DNA of 64,000 nt from Aceticella autotrophica. Lineage in GTDB: Bacteria > Bacillota > Thermoanaerobacteria > Thermoanaerobacterales > Thermoanaerobacteraceae. Shown one piece after another: positions 4,644-48,786 of the stretch (the stretch's first letter is position 1; the number at the start of each line of letters is the position of its first letter). The notes beneath the pieces are model-generated. The model was given only the letters and a program-made list of their open reading frames with translations, made no database searches and was not told where the DNA came from. The translations under genes were made by a program, and so were the position numbers. The stretch covers positions 1,537,001 to 1,601,000 of the forward strand of contig NZ_CP060096.1 in assembly GCF_017357865.1 (NCBI RefSeq). The letters run 5' to 3'.

Positions 4644-4840
4644 TCATACGACTTTCCAACAATTAATTTCCTTAAAGGGTTCAGATAGCAGTGTTACCAC
4701 TTTCATCTGCCTGTAAAAACTCTTCATTTGTTTAATTTTCTTTATTTGCTTCTCTTTATATTCATTAGAAATTTCTTTTCCATGTATTCTTTCATGGCAT
4801 TCTTTTCACAGAAGTAGACATCGGATAAATATTGTTTTTA
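4644..4840 (-). pseudogene. Remnant of an HNH-type endonuclease gene
   Basis: On the minus strand two frames together read DVYFCEK, then CHERIHGKEISNEYKEKQ and a further 30 or so residues ending at the TGA at 4644-4646. CxxCHxRIHG is the typical zinc/His end of phage-type HNH nucleases, but here it is split by a frameshift and the 5' part is missing. With the neighbouring tRNA-Leu this suggests an old, eroded phage or island junction. The assignment rests on one short motif. The rest of the 4566-4806 stretch shows nothing else. Confidence 0.4.
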
Positions 4841-4904
4841 ATTTTAATTATAAATTAATATTAGATTAATTTTCCTTTAATAATGCAATTGTAAAATAAG
4901 CTTA

Positions 4905-4925
4905 TAGTTGATAAAACATCAACTA
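4905..4925 (+). promoter_or_regulatory. Stem-loop in the PepSY leader (copy 1)
   Basis: TAGTTGAT (4905-4912) and ATCAACTA (4918-4925) form an eight-base-pair hairpin with a five-base loop, ending about 14 bases before the AGAAGGAG ribosome site. It is conserved in copy 2. It could stabilise the mRNA or be an operator; function unknown. Confidence 0.55.
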
Positions 4926-4952
4926 AATAAAAAAAGAAGGAGAAGATGTAAA

Positions 4953-5504
4953 ATGAACAAAAAAATAGTAACATACGCAGTTGCAGGAGCAATGGCACTG
5001 GGAATTGTAGGAGGAGTATCAGCATATCAGGGTATTGCAAATGCACAGACAGGAACACCAGCAACAGCAGTACAGACGACAGCAAATGATAATACGGAGA
5101 ATCCGGGGTATACTGCATCGATTAAGGTTTCAAATCCACAAGACAATGCAATGGACAATGTAAATGAAACAAAAGACAATGAAACACAGGAAAGCACAAA
5201 ATTATCAACACTTGCAAAAATCACACCTGAACAAGCAAAAGCTGAGGCATTAAAAGTTGCACAAGGCACCGTTACAAAGGTTGAACTCGACAATGAAAAT
5301 GGCAATCTTGTTTATAGTGTGGATATAAAAACAAATACAGGTTCAACTGATGTAAAAGTTGATGCAGGAAATGGTAAGGTTTTATATCAAGACAAAGGAA
5401 GCGACAATGAAAAAGGAAAAGAAAAAGCCGGTGAAACAGAAAAAACAAATGCTCCTGACAAAGACAATATTCAATCAGAACAAAATGTTCAATCAGCACA
5501 ATAA
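4953..5504 (+). CDS. Secreted PepSY-domain protein, copy 1
   Basis: 183-residue exported protein. A signal peptide (MNKKIVTYAVAGAMALGIVG, probable cleavage after AIANA-like residues near position 30) is followed by a Ser/Thr/Asn-rich linker. A single PepSY domain starts near KITPEQAKAEAL (about residues 88-145), and the C-terminal tail is highly charged and Gln/Asn/Lys-rich. PepSY domains occur in protease inhibitors and cell-surface proteins; no enzymatic motif is present. The start is the ATG at 4953 behind AGAAGGAGAAG; an upstream in-frame ATG would put the ribosome site inside the protein. The tail ends in the repeat SEQNVQSAQ. Nearly identical to the gene at 6685. Confidence 0.85.
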   Translation: MNKKIVTYAVAGAMALGIVGGVSAYQGIANAQTGTPATAVQTTANDNTENPGYTASIKVSNPQDNAMDNVNETKDNETQESTKLSTLAKITPEQAKAEALKVAQGTVTKVELDNENGNLVYSVDIKTNTGSTDVKVDAGNGKVLYQDKGSDNEKGKEKAGETEKTNAPDKDNIQSEQNVQSAQ

Positions 5505-6538: not shown

Positions 6539-7280
6539 CACAGAAGTAGACATTGGATAAATATTGTTTTTATTTTAATTATAAATTAATATTAGATTAA
6601 TTTTCCTTTAATAATGCAATTGTAAAATAAGCTTATAGTTGATAAAACATCAACTAAATAAAAAAAAGAAGGAGAAGATGTAAAATGAACAAAAAAATAG
6701 TAACATACGCAGTTGCAGGAGCAATGGCACTGGGAATTGTAGGAGGAGTATCAGCATATCAGGGTATTGCAAATGCACAGACAGAAACATCGGCAACAGC
6801 AGTACAGACGACAGCAAATGATAATACGCAGAATCCGGGGTATACTGCATCGATTAAGGTTTCAAATCCACAAGACAATGCAAAGGACAATGTAAATGAA
6901 ACTAAAGACAATGAAACACAGGAAAGCGCAAAATTATCAACACTTGCAAAAATCACACCTGAACAAGCAAAAGCTGAGGCATTAAAAGTTGCACAAGGCA
7001 CCGTTACAAAGGTTGAACTCGACAATGAAAATGGCAATCTTGTTTATAGTGTGGATATAAAAACAAATACAGGTTCAAGTGATGTAAAAGTTGATGCAGG
7101 AAATGGTAAGGTTTTATATCAAGACAAAGGAAGCGACAATGAAAAAGGAAAAGAAAAAGCCGGTGAAACAGAAAAAACAAATGCTCCTGACAAAGACAAT
7201 GTTCAATCAGAACAAAATGTTCAATCAGCACAATAAAATAAAATGATTTAAAGGTACTTCTATTAAGAAGTACCTCCTTT
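6539..7280 (+). repeat. 735-bp duplicated unit, copy 2
   Basis: Second copy of the unit at 4807-5545: same leader hairpin, ribosome site, signal peptide and PepSY gene, and a terminator with the same arms. Differences are scattered single bases, plus a different terminator loop. Confidence 0.9.
6685..7236 (+). CDS. Secreted PepSY-domain protein, copy 2
   Basis: 183 residues, differing from the product of 4953-5504 at only about ten positions (for example ETSAT for GTPAT near residue 36, SSDVKV for STDVKV, KDNVQSEQ for KDNIQSEQ). Signal peptide, PepSY domain and charged tail are all intact, so both copies are probably expressed. The substitutions are mostly conservative, which is compatible with purifying selection or gene conversion since duplication. 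Confidence 0.85.
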   Translation: MNKKIVTYAVAGAMALGIVGGVSAYQGIANAQTETSATAVQTTANDNTQNPGYTASIKVSNPQDNAKDNVNETKDNETQESAKLSTLAKITPEQAKAEALKVAQGTVTKVELDNENGNLVYSVDIKTNTGSSDVKVDAGNGKVLYQDKGSDNEKGKEKAGETEKTNAPDKDNVQSEQNVQSAQ

Positions 7281-7284: not shown

Positions 7285-7457
7285 TACAAAGCAAAATAAT
7301 TTGGCTTTTAATGTCTGCTATGAATTATAAAGTTAGAGACTTTAAAAAATTTTGTGCAAACTTCAGTTTAAATTTTGCTGCAAAAGTAATGATGACTACT
7401 TGACAGCACCATAATTTAAAGTTTAAAATAAATCAAAGGAAAAATTAAATAACAATA

Positions 7458-7613
7458 GCTTCAGGTGCTTTTTAAGCTTAATAGGGAAAGCGGTGAAAAT
7501 CCGTTGCAGCCCCTGCTACTGTAATGAAGGACGAAACCGTATTAATTCCACTGGGAAACCGGGAAGGAACGGAAGTAGGATGATATCAGAGCCAGGAGAC
7601 CTGCCTGAATGCT
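7458..7613 (+). ncRNA. Cobalamin (adenosylcobalamin) riboswitch
   Basis: Contains the classical B12 box core GCCAGGAGACCTGCC (7591-7605), the upstream blocks GGGAAAGCGGTGAAAATCCG, GCAGCCCCTGCTACTGTAA and CCGGGAAGG in the right order, and a closing P1 helix formed by AGCTTCAGG with CCTGAATGCT. It precedes an ECF S-component gene and a radical SAM gene, so those genes should be repressed when cobalamin is plentiful. No clean terminator follows; CCTTCGGAGG just downstream could sequester a ribosome site, so control may be translational. Confidence 0.95.
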
Positions 7614-7637
7614 AAACTGGCCTTCGGAGGGGAGAGA

Positions 7638-7745
7638 ATGGTATATGAGAGAGATTTCTGTTTTAAAATTCCAATTATAACCCTAAAGAGCTGTAACATG
7701 GAGTTTTTTTATTTTATTTTTTTATATGTTAATTTATTAAAATAA
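7638..7745 (+). CDS. Possible 35-residue leader or small membrane peptide behind the riboswitch
   Basis: ATG at 7638 follows GGAGGGGAG at ideal spacing, immediately after the cobalamin riboswitch. The frame runs 35 codons to TAA at 7743, 26 bases before the ECF gene start. The C-terminal half is hydrophobic (MEFFYFIFLYVNLLK). The strong ribosome site overlaps the small CCTTCGGAGG hairpin, so this ORF may be what the riboswitch controls directly. It could equally be chance; no homologue is known to me. Confidence 0.4.
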   Translation: MVYERDFCFKIPIITLKSCNMEFFYFIFLYVNLLK

Positions 7746-7771
7746 GTTTGAAATTTAGGAGGTCAAAAATA

Positions 7772-8323
7772 ATGAAAAATAATAATGTCACCAAACTTAT
7801 ACAAGCATCTATATTTTTAGCACTTGCTATGATTCTCCAAATTATAGGTAGAAATTTTGTTCAAATAAACCCTATTCTTATTGGACCATTAATAAGTACA
7901 ATTATCTTTTTGACAACTTATATATCTGGTCTAAGTTTAGGAATTTTAATAGGAATACTTATTCCACTACTTGGCATATTAATTGGGGTTGTTGCCGGAC
8001 CATTTATACCATTTGTTCCTGTTATGATACTTGGAAATATAATCCTTATTATAACATTTGGAATCTTAATGTATAAAGGAAGAACTTTTTTATATGCAGG
8101 AATCGCACTTAGCTCCATTTTAAGATACCTCTTCATGACTTTCGCTTCTCAATATTTAATTAATATATTTAATTTAAATATTCCTCAAAAAATTTTACAA
8201 CAAGTCTTAATGCTTCTTTCAACCCCACAACTTATTAATGCTTTAATTGGTGGAATAATAGCCATTATTATTATCGAAATCTTGAATAAAAGAAAACTTA
8301 ATTTCTTAAAAAATTTAAAATAA
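7772..8323 (+). CDS. ECF transporter S component, cobalamin-regulated
   Basis: 183-residue integral membrane protein with about five to six hydrophobic helices (opening MKNNNVTKLIQASIFLALAM, later GPLISTIIFLTTYISG and VVAGPFIPFVPVMILG). This is the size and pattern of S components of energy-coupling factor vitamin transporters. These bind the substrate and share the EcfAA'T module encoded elsewhere. The upstream B12 riboswitch makes a cobalamin precursor a likely cargo; the CblT-type alpha-ribazole transporters of Firmicutes are one candidate. The start is the ATG at 7772 behind TTTAGGAGGTC. The next gene begins 18 bases on. Confidence 0.8.
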   Translation: MKNNNVTKLIQASIFLALAMILQIIGRNFVQINPILIGPLISTIIFLTTYISGLSLGILIGILIPLLGILIGVVAGPFIPFVPVMILGNIILIITFGILMYKGRTFLYAGIALSSILRYLFMTFASQYLINIFNLNIPQKILQQVLMLLSTPQLINALIGGIIAIIIIEILNKRKLNFLKNLK

Positions 8324-8341
8324 AAATGGAGATAGTAAATT

Positions 8342-9310
8342 ATGAATATTAAAACAAAAAATGAAATAATTGAAATACTAAAAATGCCTTATAATGAATT
8401 TGATAAGTCAATTAAATCCATTGCAAAAAATATCTCCCAAAATATTAATATACAAACTATTGCATTGCTTGGTTATAATAATACATGTATTAATCAATGT
8501 ACTTACTGTGGTATGAGAGCAGATAATATAAATTTAAAACGTTATAAATTATCACCAACAGAAATTAAAAAAATAGTAAAAACAGTTGAAAAATCAAATA
8601 TAAAAAATATTTATTTCGTATCCGGAGAGGATCCGGAATATGATTTTAAAGATATCCTATCAATAATTGAATATAGTAAAAGCTTAAATCTCAATGTAGG
8701 TTTGGCTATCGGTGAAAGAAAGTTGAAAGATTATAATGAATTAAAAGCGGCAGGTTTAGATGAATATATGTTAAAATTTGAAACAACAAATAAAACCCTT
8801 TTTAACAACATCAAACCAAATACCAATTTTAAAAAACGAATTAGTTGCATACAACAAATTAAAAAAGCTGGTTTGCGTTTGGCTTCCGGTAATATTGTAG
8901 GACTTCCACATCAAACAATTGATGATATAGCCAATGACATCATCTTAATGAATGATTTGGAAATTAGTTTTGCTCCCGTTATTCCTTATATACCTGTTTC
9001 TAATACGCCACTTATTATTGAAGCAAAGAAAGAAAATAATAAAAAAAATTTAGAATTAACAATAAAAGAAATATCCTTATTAAGAATTATAATACCAAAA
9101 GTCAATATTACTGCTCAACAACCAGGTGAAGATTTTAAAAACGGATTGTCTGATTTAAATGGAAATTTAAATGCACTAAAGGCAGGAGCTAATGTGCTTC
9201 TTATTGACATGTTGCCTCAAGAATTAATAGAAAATTTCAATATTATTGATAACAGAATGATTAAAGGATTGAATCATATTAACAAATTAATTACATTGTA
9301 TAATTTATAA
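8342..9310 (+). CDS. Radical SAM enzyme of the BioB/HydE/PylB-like group
   Basis: 322-residue radical SAM protein with the cluster motif C49-x3-C53-x2-C56 (CINQCTYCG), a glycine-rich SAM-binding region (YFVSGEDPE) and a TIM-barrel-like layout resembling biotin synthase, HydE and PylB. It has no biotin or hydrogenase neighbours. It lies in the same riboswitch-controlled unit as the ECF S component, so it may make or modify a cobalamin-related molecule such as a lower ligand. The exact reaction is unknown. ATG at 8342 has GGAGATAGTAAATT upstream. Confidence 0.82.
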   Translation: MNIKTKNEIIEILKMPYNEFDKSIKSIAKNISQNINIQTIALLGYNNTCINQCTYCGMRADNINLKRYKLSPTEIKKIVKTVEKSNIKNIYFVSGEDPEYDFKDILSIIEYSKSLNLNVGLAIGERKLKDYNELKAAGLDEYMLKFETTNKTLFNNIKPNTNFKKRISCIQQIKKAGLRLASGNIVGLPHQTIDDIANDIILMNDLEISFAPVIPYIPVSNTPLIIEAKKENNKKNLELTIKEISLLRIIIPKVNITAQQPGEDFKNGLSDLNGNLNALKAGANVLLIDMLPQELIENFNIIDNRMIKGLNHINKLITLYNL

Positions 9311-39671: not shown

Positions 39672-40283
39672 TTATTTTTCTTCCTCAATAACAGAAGCCT
39701 GATCTTTATTGCTTAAAAACATTTCCGTATACTTCATTTCCTTTCCTGTAAAAACTGGATAGGTAAAGTGCATTCCTTTTTCTCTAAGCATCACTGATAA
39801 AGGCTTTGCCTTTTCATAATCCATTTCTCCATCTTTATTAAAGAAGGAGTCGTTTACCTCAAGATGAATTACCTTGCCGATTACAATGGAATAATTTTTC
39901 CTGCTTATCTCCTCTACCAATGAGCATTCTGCCCATGCTATGCAACCATCGATTCCAGGAGCTTTTACCTTTTGAGAAATACGTGGCTTTAAGCCTGCCT
40001 TTTCAAACTCATCAACATCCGGAGGATAATCCCGTGATGAAATCACAATAGCTTCAATCATATCTACAGTTGGTACATTGACTACAAATTCCCCTGTTTC
40101 GCGAATATTATTTAATGTGTCGCGTTTAATCCATGATGCAATAGCTATATCGTCAAGCGGTCTTAATACCGGCATCACACATGACCATGGAGCAGCATTC
40201 CTTACTCCATCCTTTCCAATAGTTGAAATCAGTACAACCGGAAGCGGCATTATCTGTTCTCTCTTACGTGGTTCAAGTATCAT
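39672..40283 (-). CDS. Flavin reductase-type FMN-binding protein, copy A
   Basis: 203-residue protein of the flavin reductase/FMN-binding split-barrel family (DIM6/NTAB type): VVLISTIGKDGVRNAAPWSC, GEFVVNVP and ECSLVEEISRKNYSIVIGKV are typical. In metal uptake such enzymes may reduce a metal complex to release the metal or supply reduced flavin; this is inference. It is the first gene behind operator A. AAAAAGGGGG precedes the ATG. Confidence 0.88.
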   Translation of the reverse strand: MILEPRKREQIMPLPVVLISTIGKDGVRNAAPWSCVMPVLRPLDDIAIASWIKRDTLNNIRETGEFVVNVPTVDMIEAIVISSRDYPPDVDEFEKAGLKPRISQKVKAPGIDGCIAWAECSLVEEISRKNYSIVIGKVIHLEVNDSFFNKDGEMDYEKAKPLSVMLREKGMHFTYPVFTGKEMKYTEMFLSNKDQASVIEEEK

Positions 40284-48174: not shown

Positions 48175-48786
48175 TTATTTTTCTTCCTCAATAACAGAAG
48201 CCTGATCTTTATTGCTTAAAAACATTTCCGTATACTTCATTTCCTTTCCTGTAAAAACTGGATAGGTAAAGTGCATTCCTTTTTCTCTAAGCATCACTGA
48301 TAAAGGCTTTGCCTTTTCATAATCCATTTCTCCATCTTTATTAAAGAAGGAGTCGTTTACCTCAAGATGAATTACCTTGCCGATTACAATGGAATAATTT
48401 TTCCTGCTTATCTCCTCTACCAATGAGCATTCTGCCCATGCTATGCAACCATCGATTCCAGGAGCTTTTACCTTTTGAGAAATACGTGGCTTTAAGCCTG
48501 CCTTTTCAAACTCATCAACATCCGGAGGATAATCCCGTGATGAAATCACAATAGCTTCAATCATATCTACAGTTGGTACATTGACTACAAATTCCCCTGT
48601 TTCGCGAATATTATTTAATGTGTCGCGTTTAATCCATGATGCAATAGCTATATCGTCAAGCGGTCTTAATACCGGCATCACACATGACCATGGAGCAGCA
48701 TTCCTTACTCCATCCTTTCCAATAGTTGAAATCAGTACAACCGGAAGCGGGATTACCTGTTCTCTCTTACGTGGTTCAAGTATCAT
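48175..48786 (-). CDS. Flavin reductase-type FMN-binding protein, copy B
   Basis: 203 residues, identical to the product of 39672-40283 except at two adjacent positions near the N-terminus (REQVIPLP for REQIMPLP). Same split-barrel FMN-binding family. It heads the second operator-controlled unit, in front of a family-5 binding protein. Confidence 0.88.
   Translation of the reverse strand: MILEPRKREQVIPLPVVLISTIGKDGVRNAAPWSCVMPVLRPLDDIAIASWIKRDTLNNIRETGEFVVNVPTVDMIEAIVISSRDYPPDVDEFEKAGLKPRISQKVKAPGIDGCIAWAECSLVEEISRKNYSIVIGKVIHLEVNDSFFNKDGEMDYEKAKPLSVMLREKGMHFTYPVFTGKEMKYTEMFLSNKDQASVIEEEK

Follow-up and report, generated by a model that had tools for sequence, protein, structure and literature searches.

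What does a cobalamin riboswitch control when it stands before an ECF transporter S component and a radical-SAM enzyme, with none of the classical cobalamin genes in the flanks that were read? This constellation is found in Aceticella autotrophica, in a window (the whole stretch of DNA analysed here) of 64,000 nucleotides on a closed chromosome of 2,267,618 bases. Many cobalamin riboswitches precede genes for cobalamin synthesis, transport and use (PMC9600662). The organism, strain 3443-3Ac, is an obligately autotrophic acetogen, which needs no vitamins for growth and has genes for all 18 COGs of cobalamin biosynthesis (PMC10213532). An earlier note, made from the DNA letters, had proposed that the pair could salvage and remodel a corrinoid precursor or a lower ligand. 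Literature searches yielded no description of the pair, nor of a cobalamin riboswitch that controls a HydE-like gene. We here read it as a B12-repressed salvage module that would import a compound and convert it, the product most likely feeding the corrinoid supply of Aceticella; the probability of this reading is about 0.4.

Riboswitch, leader and S component

Riboswitch, S component and radical-SAM gene form a single compact unit on the plus strand (Table 1).

Table 1. Features of the riboswitch-controlled unit, in window coordinates
Feature	Position	Strand	Evidence
Promoter-like site TTGACA-18-TAAAAT	7400-7429	+	11/12 consensus matches
Cobalamin riboswitch aptamer RF00174	7447-7622	+	112.9 bits, full-length match with B12 box GAGCCAGGAGACCUGCC
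Predicted anti-Shine-Dalgarno segment, directly 3' of aptamer	7619-7625	+	pairs with 7758-7764, in silico
Shine-Dalgarno of S component, AGGAGGUC	7757-7764	+	sequence; AGGAGG at 7757
ECF transporter S component, 183 aa	7772-8323	+	PF12822 ECF_trnsprt 45.8 bits
HydE-family radical-SAM enzyme, distinct subfamily, 322 aa	8342-9310	+	TIGR03956 166 bits; PF04055 71.7 bits
CxxxCxxC motif for [4Fe-4S] cluster, C49/C53/C56	8486-8509	+	aligned with C63/C67/C70 of T. maritima HydE

A covariance-model search bears out the riboswitch of the earlier note. The aptamer is of the AdoCbl type, matches the model completely (1-189, E 1.6e-27) and scores far above the gathering score of 31.5 bits. The S component likewise exceeds the cut-off of its Pfam family (gathering score 30.7 bits), and its assignment as an ECF substrate-binding subunit stands. 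Its best start is the ATG at 7772, behind the AGGAGG, rather than the TTG at 7748, and 18 nt past its stop codon the radical-SAM gene begins. The plasmid collection and the PDB sequences hold no close relative of the S component, and its single-sequence AlphaFold model is all-helical but weak (pLDDT 67, pTM 0.37).

The 3' end of the promoter-like site lies 17 nt upstream of the aptamer. It is only this position that speaks for the site, the number of such matches in the AT-rich region being no higher than in shuffled sequences. According to base-pair probabilities of the leader, calculated in silico, the Shine-Dalgarno bases 7758-7764 pair with 7619-7625 with P ~0.87. This is consistent with translational control via sequestration of the Shine-Dalgarno sequence of the S component. 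The expression platform is, however, just a model, because the whole leader folds no better than shuffled sequences (z -0.58).

Other parts of the window may be mentioned in passing. Positions 4807-5228 and 6539-6960 are a direct duplication (95-99%) of a gene for a PepSY-domain protein with its upstream region; it flanks two minus-strand genes (133 and 84 aa) that together resemble a PIN-type toxin-antitoxin module. Between 26200 and 29267, a selenocysteine tRNA is followed, about 0.6 kb downstream and on the other strand, by an AmmeMemoRadiSam system, composed of a protein A domain and the radical-SAM enzyme belonging to it. Clusters for ABC importers of the oligopeptide/nickel type extend from 37585 to 57904; with them come a DUF364 protein, putatively for chelation of heavy metals, and two near-copies of a flavin-reductase-like gene (39672-40283 and 48175-48786). 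DUF364 and such an importer also directly follow a HydE-like gene in genome G358, which is discussed below.

The radical-SAM enzyme and its pocket

Of the label BioB/HydE-like, under which the enzyme had been introduced, only the second half holds. In the NCBIfam ranking HydE (TIGR03956) comes first, followed by PylB (110 bits) and BioB (86 bits), and HydE of T. maritima is the best solved relative in a PDB sequence search (E ~6e-47). Even the HydE score stays below the equivalog cut-off of 254.6 bits, as do those of the two orthologs presented below (180 and 186 bits). BioB is out with 85.7 bits against a cut-off of 225, and so is PylB, the methylornithine synthase, which would need 348 bits; a real PylB (L024) lies outside the clade formed by the enzyme and its orthologs and differs at the pocket positions.

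The architecture recalls queuine salvage by QrtT and QueL, likewise an ECF S component and a radical-SAM enzyme. QueG is B12-dependent, and a queuosine-type salvage with QueL, the queuine lyase, could derive its B12 control from this need. Such an identity is nevertheless extremely improbable. The radical-SAM family is a different one by profile as well as by PDB search: HydE ranks first, before PylB and BioB, and although the structure of a queuine lyase has been solved, no such chain appears among the PDB sequence matches at E up to 0.01. QueL is thus out.

Profile searches detected a canonical HydE (335 bits) and a canonical HydG (498 bits) elsewhere in the Aceticella genome. Judged by sequence, the window enzyme is a paralog of this HydE, and because both canonical proteins are present it is not needed as HydE. 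It shares with HydE the fold family and the core motifs, but differs in being B12-controlled and in coexisting with the canonical protein. In trees it falls into the HydE group, yet together with its two orthologs it makes up a separate clade on a long stem (support 99/99 and 100/100), apart from PylB and from HydE proper; where exactly this clade roots inside the HydE group is unsettled in the trees.

The pocket was compared by aligning HydE and HydE-paralog sequences, including that of T. maritima, whose numbering is used here, with the three clade proteins. All eight positions that are invariant across the former are changed in the latter: Q107 to V/I, T134 to G/S, S136 to A, M224 to F/W, G226 to P, T268 to Q, T269 to Q and M291 to L/F. 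Position 155, which is R or N in the HydE and paralog sequences compared, is E in all three. In contrast, the core motifs are kept (CxxxCxxC, S108-G-E-D-P, E161, R180, Q205-T206, P-F/Y-x-P-TP). Several of the replaced residues presumably line the substrate site, as in HydE crystal structures. Since the pocket residues differ from those of HydE, a new substrate is likely, and we infer that the clade does not act on that of HydE. As the anion-binding residues of HydE are lost (Arg155 to Glu, Thr268/269 to Gln), the pocket probably accommodates a molecule that is neutral or bears an amine, and not an iron-carbonyl-cyanide complex, when the alignment is read against HydE crystal structures. The single-sequence AlphaFold model of the enzyme is poor (pLDDT 36).

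HydE paralogs are common in a sister genus of the same family (g3; L038, L040, L042-L048). Most genomes of this genus have one, in most cases a protein of 432-441 aa that includes an additional N-terminal domain; Asn takes the place of the HydE Arg155.

Orthologs and their ABC importer

Orthologs of the enzyme are rare. In a sample of 399 genomes of the phylum, two of the other 398 contain one: G358 (49% identity) and G140 (47%). No further genome among 20 of the family or 37 of the class carries the gene; the searches there retrieved only HydE and HydE-like paralogs, 33-37% identical to the enzyme. Searches extended to the orders and classes around the two orthologs added no member. A scan of the viral collection with the three-protein alignment revealed no relative, the plasmid collection offered only canonical HydE or BioB, and the collection of genome contigs one PylB and one HydG/ThiH-like protein. 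With Aceticella as the only carrier among the 37 genomes of its class, one might suspect a recent acquisition, perhaps a non-functional remnant, or a riboswitch captured by chance. Reading frames that are intact, catalytic cysteines, a strong Shine-Dalgarno sequence, a high-scoring aptamer of full length and the 18-nt intergenic gap make this very unlikely.

In G140 the genes for a substrate-binding protein, a permease and an ATPase precede the enzyme gene, with an overlap of 1 nt, and HydF (530 bits) follows after a gap of 12 nt. In G358 the order is TM1266 (a hydrogenase regulator), substrate-binding protein, permease, ATPase and enzyme. The riboswitch is absent from both loci, and none of the three enzyme loci has a cobalamin gene among its neighbours. 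Linkage to HydF, HydG or hydrogenase genes is seen in G140 and G358, but not in the window. The earlier note had itself named riboswitch-free orthologous pairs beside hydrogenase genes as evidence against its proposal. Both orthologs are of just this kind, and the corrinoid claim must therefore be stated weakly.

In all three cases the enzyme gene directly follows a transporter gene, and the transporters belong to two unrelated types, ECF S component and ABC importer. This argues for a step of import and conversion. What survives of the proposal is a B12-controlled importer with its radical-SAM partner, a pair that looks like a salvage module; a corrinoid precursor or lower ligand as the substrate is not supported. 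What is solid is that the enzymes constitute a subfamily of their own, which derives from HydE and is linked with transporters; within the HydE/BioB/PylB radical-SAM family this branch has so far had no name.

The ABC importer, of the NitT/TauT type, is more widespread than the enzyme. A close substrate-binding protein was found in 31 of the 399 genomes. In several lineages of Clostridia and in Collinsella, members of the family repeatedly stand next to TM1266 or [FeFe]-hydrogenase genes (L076, L077, L113, L114, L133, L135, L138, L139 and other loci). A TM1266 or hydrogenase-type gene is near the importer in G358, G331, G098, G288, G321, G401 and G174; HydF is near in G140, and G249 shows a more distant hydrogenase match. 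Immediately upstream of the importer there is TM1266 in Vescimonas and an [FeFe]-hydrogenase in Collinsella. About 22 of the 31 loci have no hydrogenase gene nearby; by chance, one or two of 31 would be expected to have such a neighbour, which is a rough estimate made without control loci.

G140 and G358 contain [FeFe]-hydrogenases, and the H-cluster motifs are intact in those of G140. A profile search found no HydG in either genome, nor did cross-matching detect a canonical HydE. The listed completeness is 99% for G140 and 86% for G358, and the bifurcating hydrogenase genes lie at contig ends in both, so that HydG may reside in an assembly gap. For clostridial acetogens, the gap posed by hydrogenases without a detectable HydG has been noted before (PMC9431212).

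Corrinoid supply or H-cluster assembly

The evidence is in conflict. B12 control and the B12 regulon point to corrinoids, whereas the enzyme family and the neighbours of the orthologs point to [FeFe]-hydrogenase maturation.

Six other cobalamin riboswitches are found in the Aceticella genome. One stands before a cob operon whose products include an ECF S component and an AIR-synthase-like protein (candidate CblT/CblS), one before a btuF-cbiZ-cobN unit and one before cbiMNQO. A fourth precedes the gene for a DUF4430 protein, which is accompanied by an ECF cassette; the last two belong to surface proteins with S-layer anchors, of which one has DUF4430 domains. The names cob, cobN and cbiMNQO were read by eye from the protein sequences, and DUF4430 is taken here to be a transcobalamin-type corrinoid-binding domain. 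All six appear to serve corrinoid supply, and by analogy the same is argued for the unit in the window.

Two of these loci, both outside the window, are peculiar in themselves. At L019 5607-12244 (G000:C1:238606-245243), two cobalamin riboswitches of equal score stand before S-layer-homology proteins, one of 1490 aa with two DUF4430 domains and one of 509 aa with a weak squalene-cyclase-like match; both resemble corrinoid binders that are anchored at the surface and controlled by B12. At L017 6279-8604 (G000:C1), a transposon-like element with a serine recombinase has come to lie between btuF and cbiZ and probably cuts cbiZ-cobN off from its riboswitch.

The usual logic of many cobalamin riboswitches would also allow a B12-sparing function: the imported and converted compound would let the cell do without a B12-dependent reaction, which is the part that MetE or NrdAB play in other operons with B12 riboswitches. 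No B12-dependent or B12-independent isoenzyme is, however, adjacent, and none of the six other switches controls such a bypass gene, so this must be rated improbable.

The nearest known analogue that had been named, the salvage of alpha-ribazole by CblT and CblS, likewise pairs an enzyme with an ECF S component that a B12 riboswitch controls. The window enzyme, however, is a radical-SAM protein and not a kinase. The analogy is further weakened by the cob operon, which already has its own pair of S component and AIR-synthase-like protein, its S component being without detectable similarity to that of the window (14 bits, E 1.2).

The reading preferred here, supply of corrinoids, would work as follows. 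When adenosyl-corrinoid becomes scarce, the Shine-Dalgarno sequence would be freed and the S component made. It would dock on the shared ECF energising module of the cell and import a small precursor, which the enzyme would remodel with a 5'-deoxyadenosyl radical. The product would then most likely enter corrinoid supply, e.g., as a precursor of the lower ligand or of a corrin side chain. Against this it must be said that the orthologs are riboswitch-free and sit beside HydF or TM1266 rather than B12 genes. Nor is corrinoid salvage strictly needed by an organism that grows without vitamins and has the complete set of cobalamin-biosynthesis COGs (PMC10213532).

The main rival is a role in assembly of the [FeFe]-hydrogenase H-cluster. 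An imported precursor would be converted by the HydE-like enzyme for HydF, as a stand-in for HydG and/or HydE in G140 and G358 and as an extra route under B12 control in Aceticella. The membership of the enzyme in the HydE family, the gene orders around both orthologs, hydrogenases in genomes that yielded neither HydG nor a canonical HydE, and the recurrence of the importer near TM1266 or hydrogenase genes all speak for it. But Aceticella has both canonical maturases, it is not obvious why hydrogenase maturation should be controlled by a B12 riboswitch, the invariant pocket residues of HydE are replaced, most of the importer loci show no hydrogenase gene nearby, and the missing HydG may be hidden in an assembly gap. 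An H-cluster role thus appears possible, if doubtful, and corrinoid supply is slightly favoured over it in Aceticella. More specifically, bacteria like G140 and G358 might make the H-cluster independently of HydG, by taking up, via the hydrogenase-linked ABC importer, either a precursor or a compound that replaces the HydG product and processing it with the HydE-derived enzyme before HydF, with Aceticella using a B12-controlled ECF version; we regard this as unlikely.

If an H-cluster role proved true, it could bear on how the cofactor is made in bacteria that have hydrogenases without a detectable HydG. A corrinoid precursor as the product would mean one more salvage route for an organism whose livelihood is corrinoid-dependent acetogenesis.
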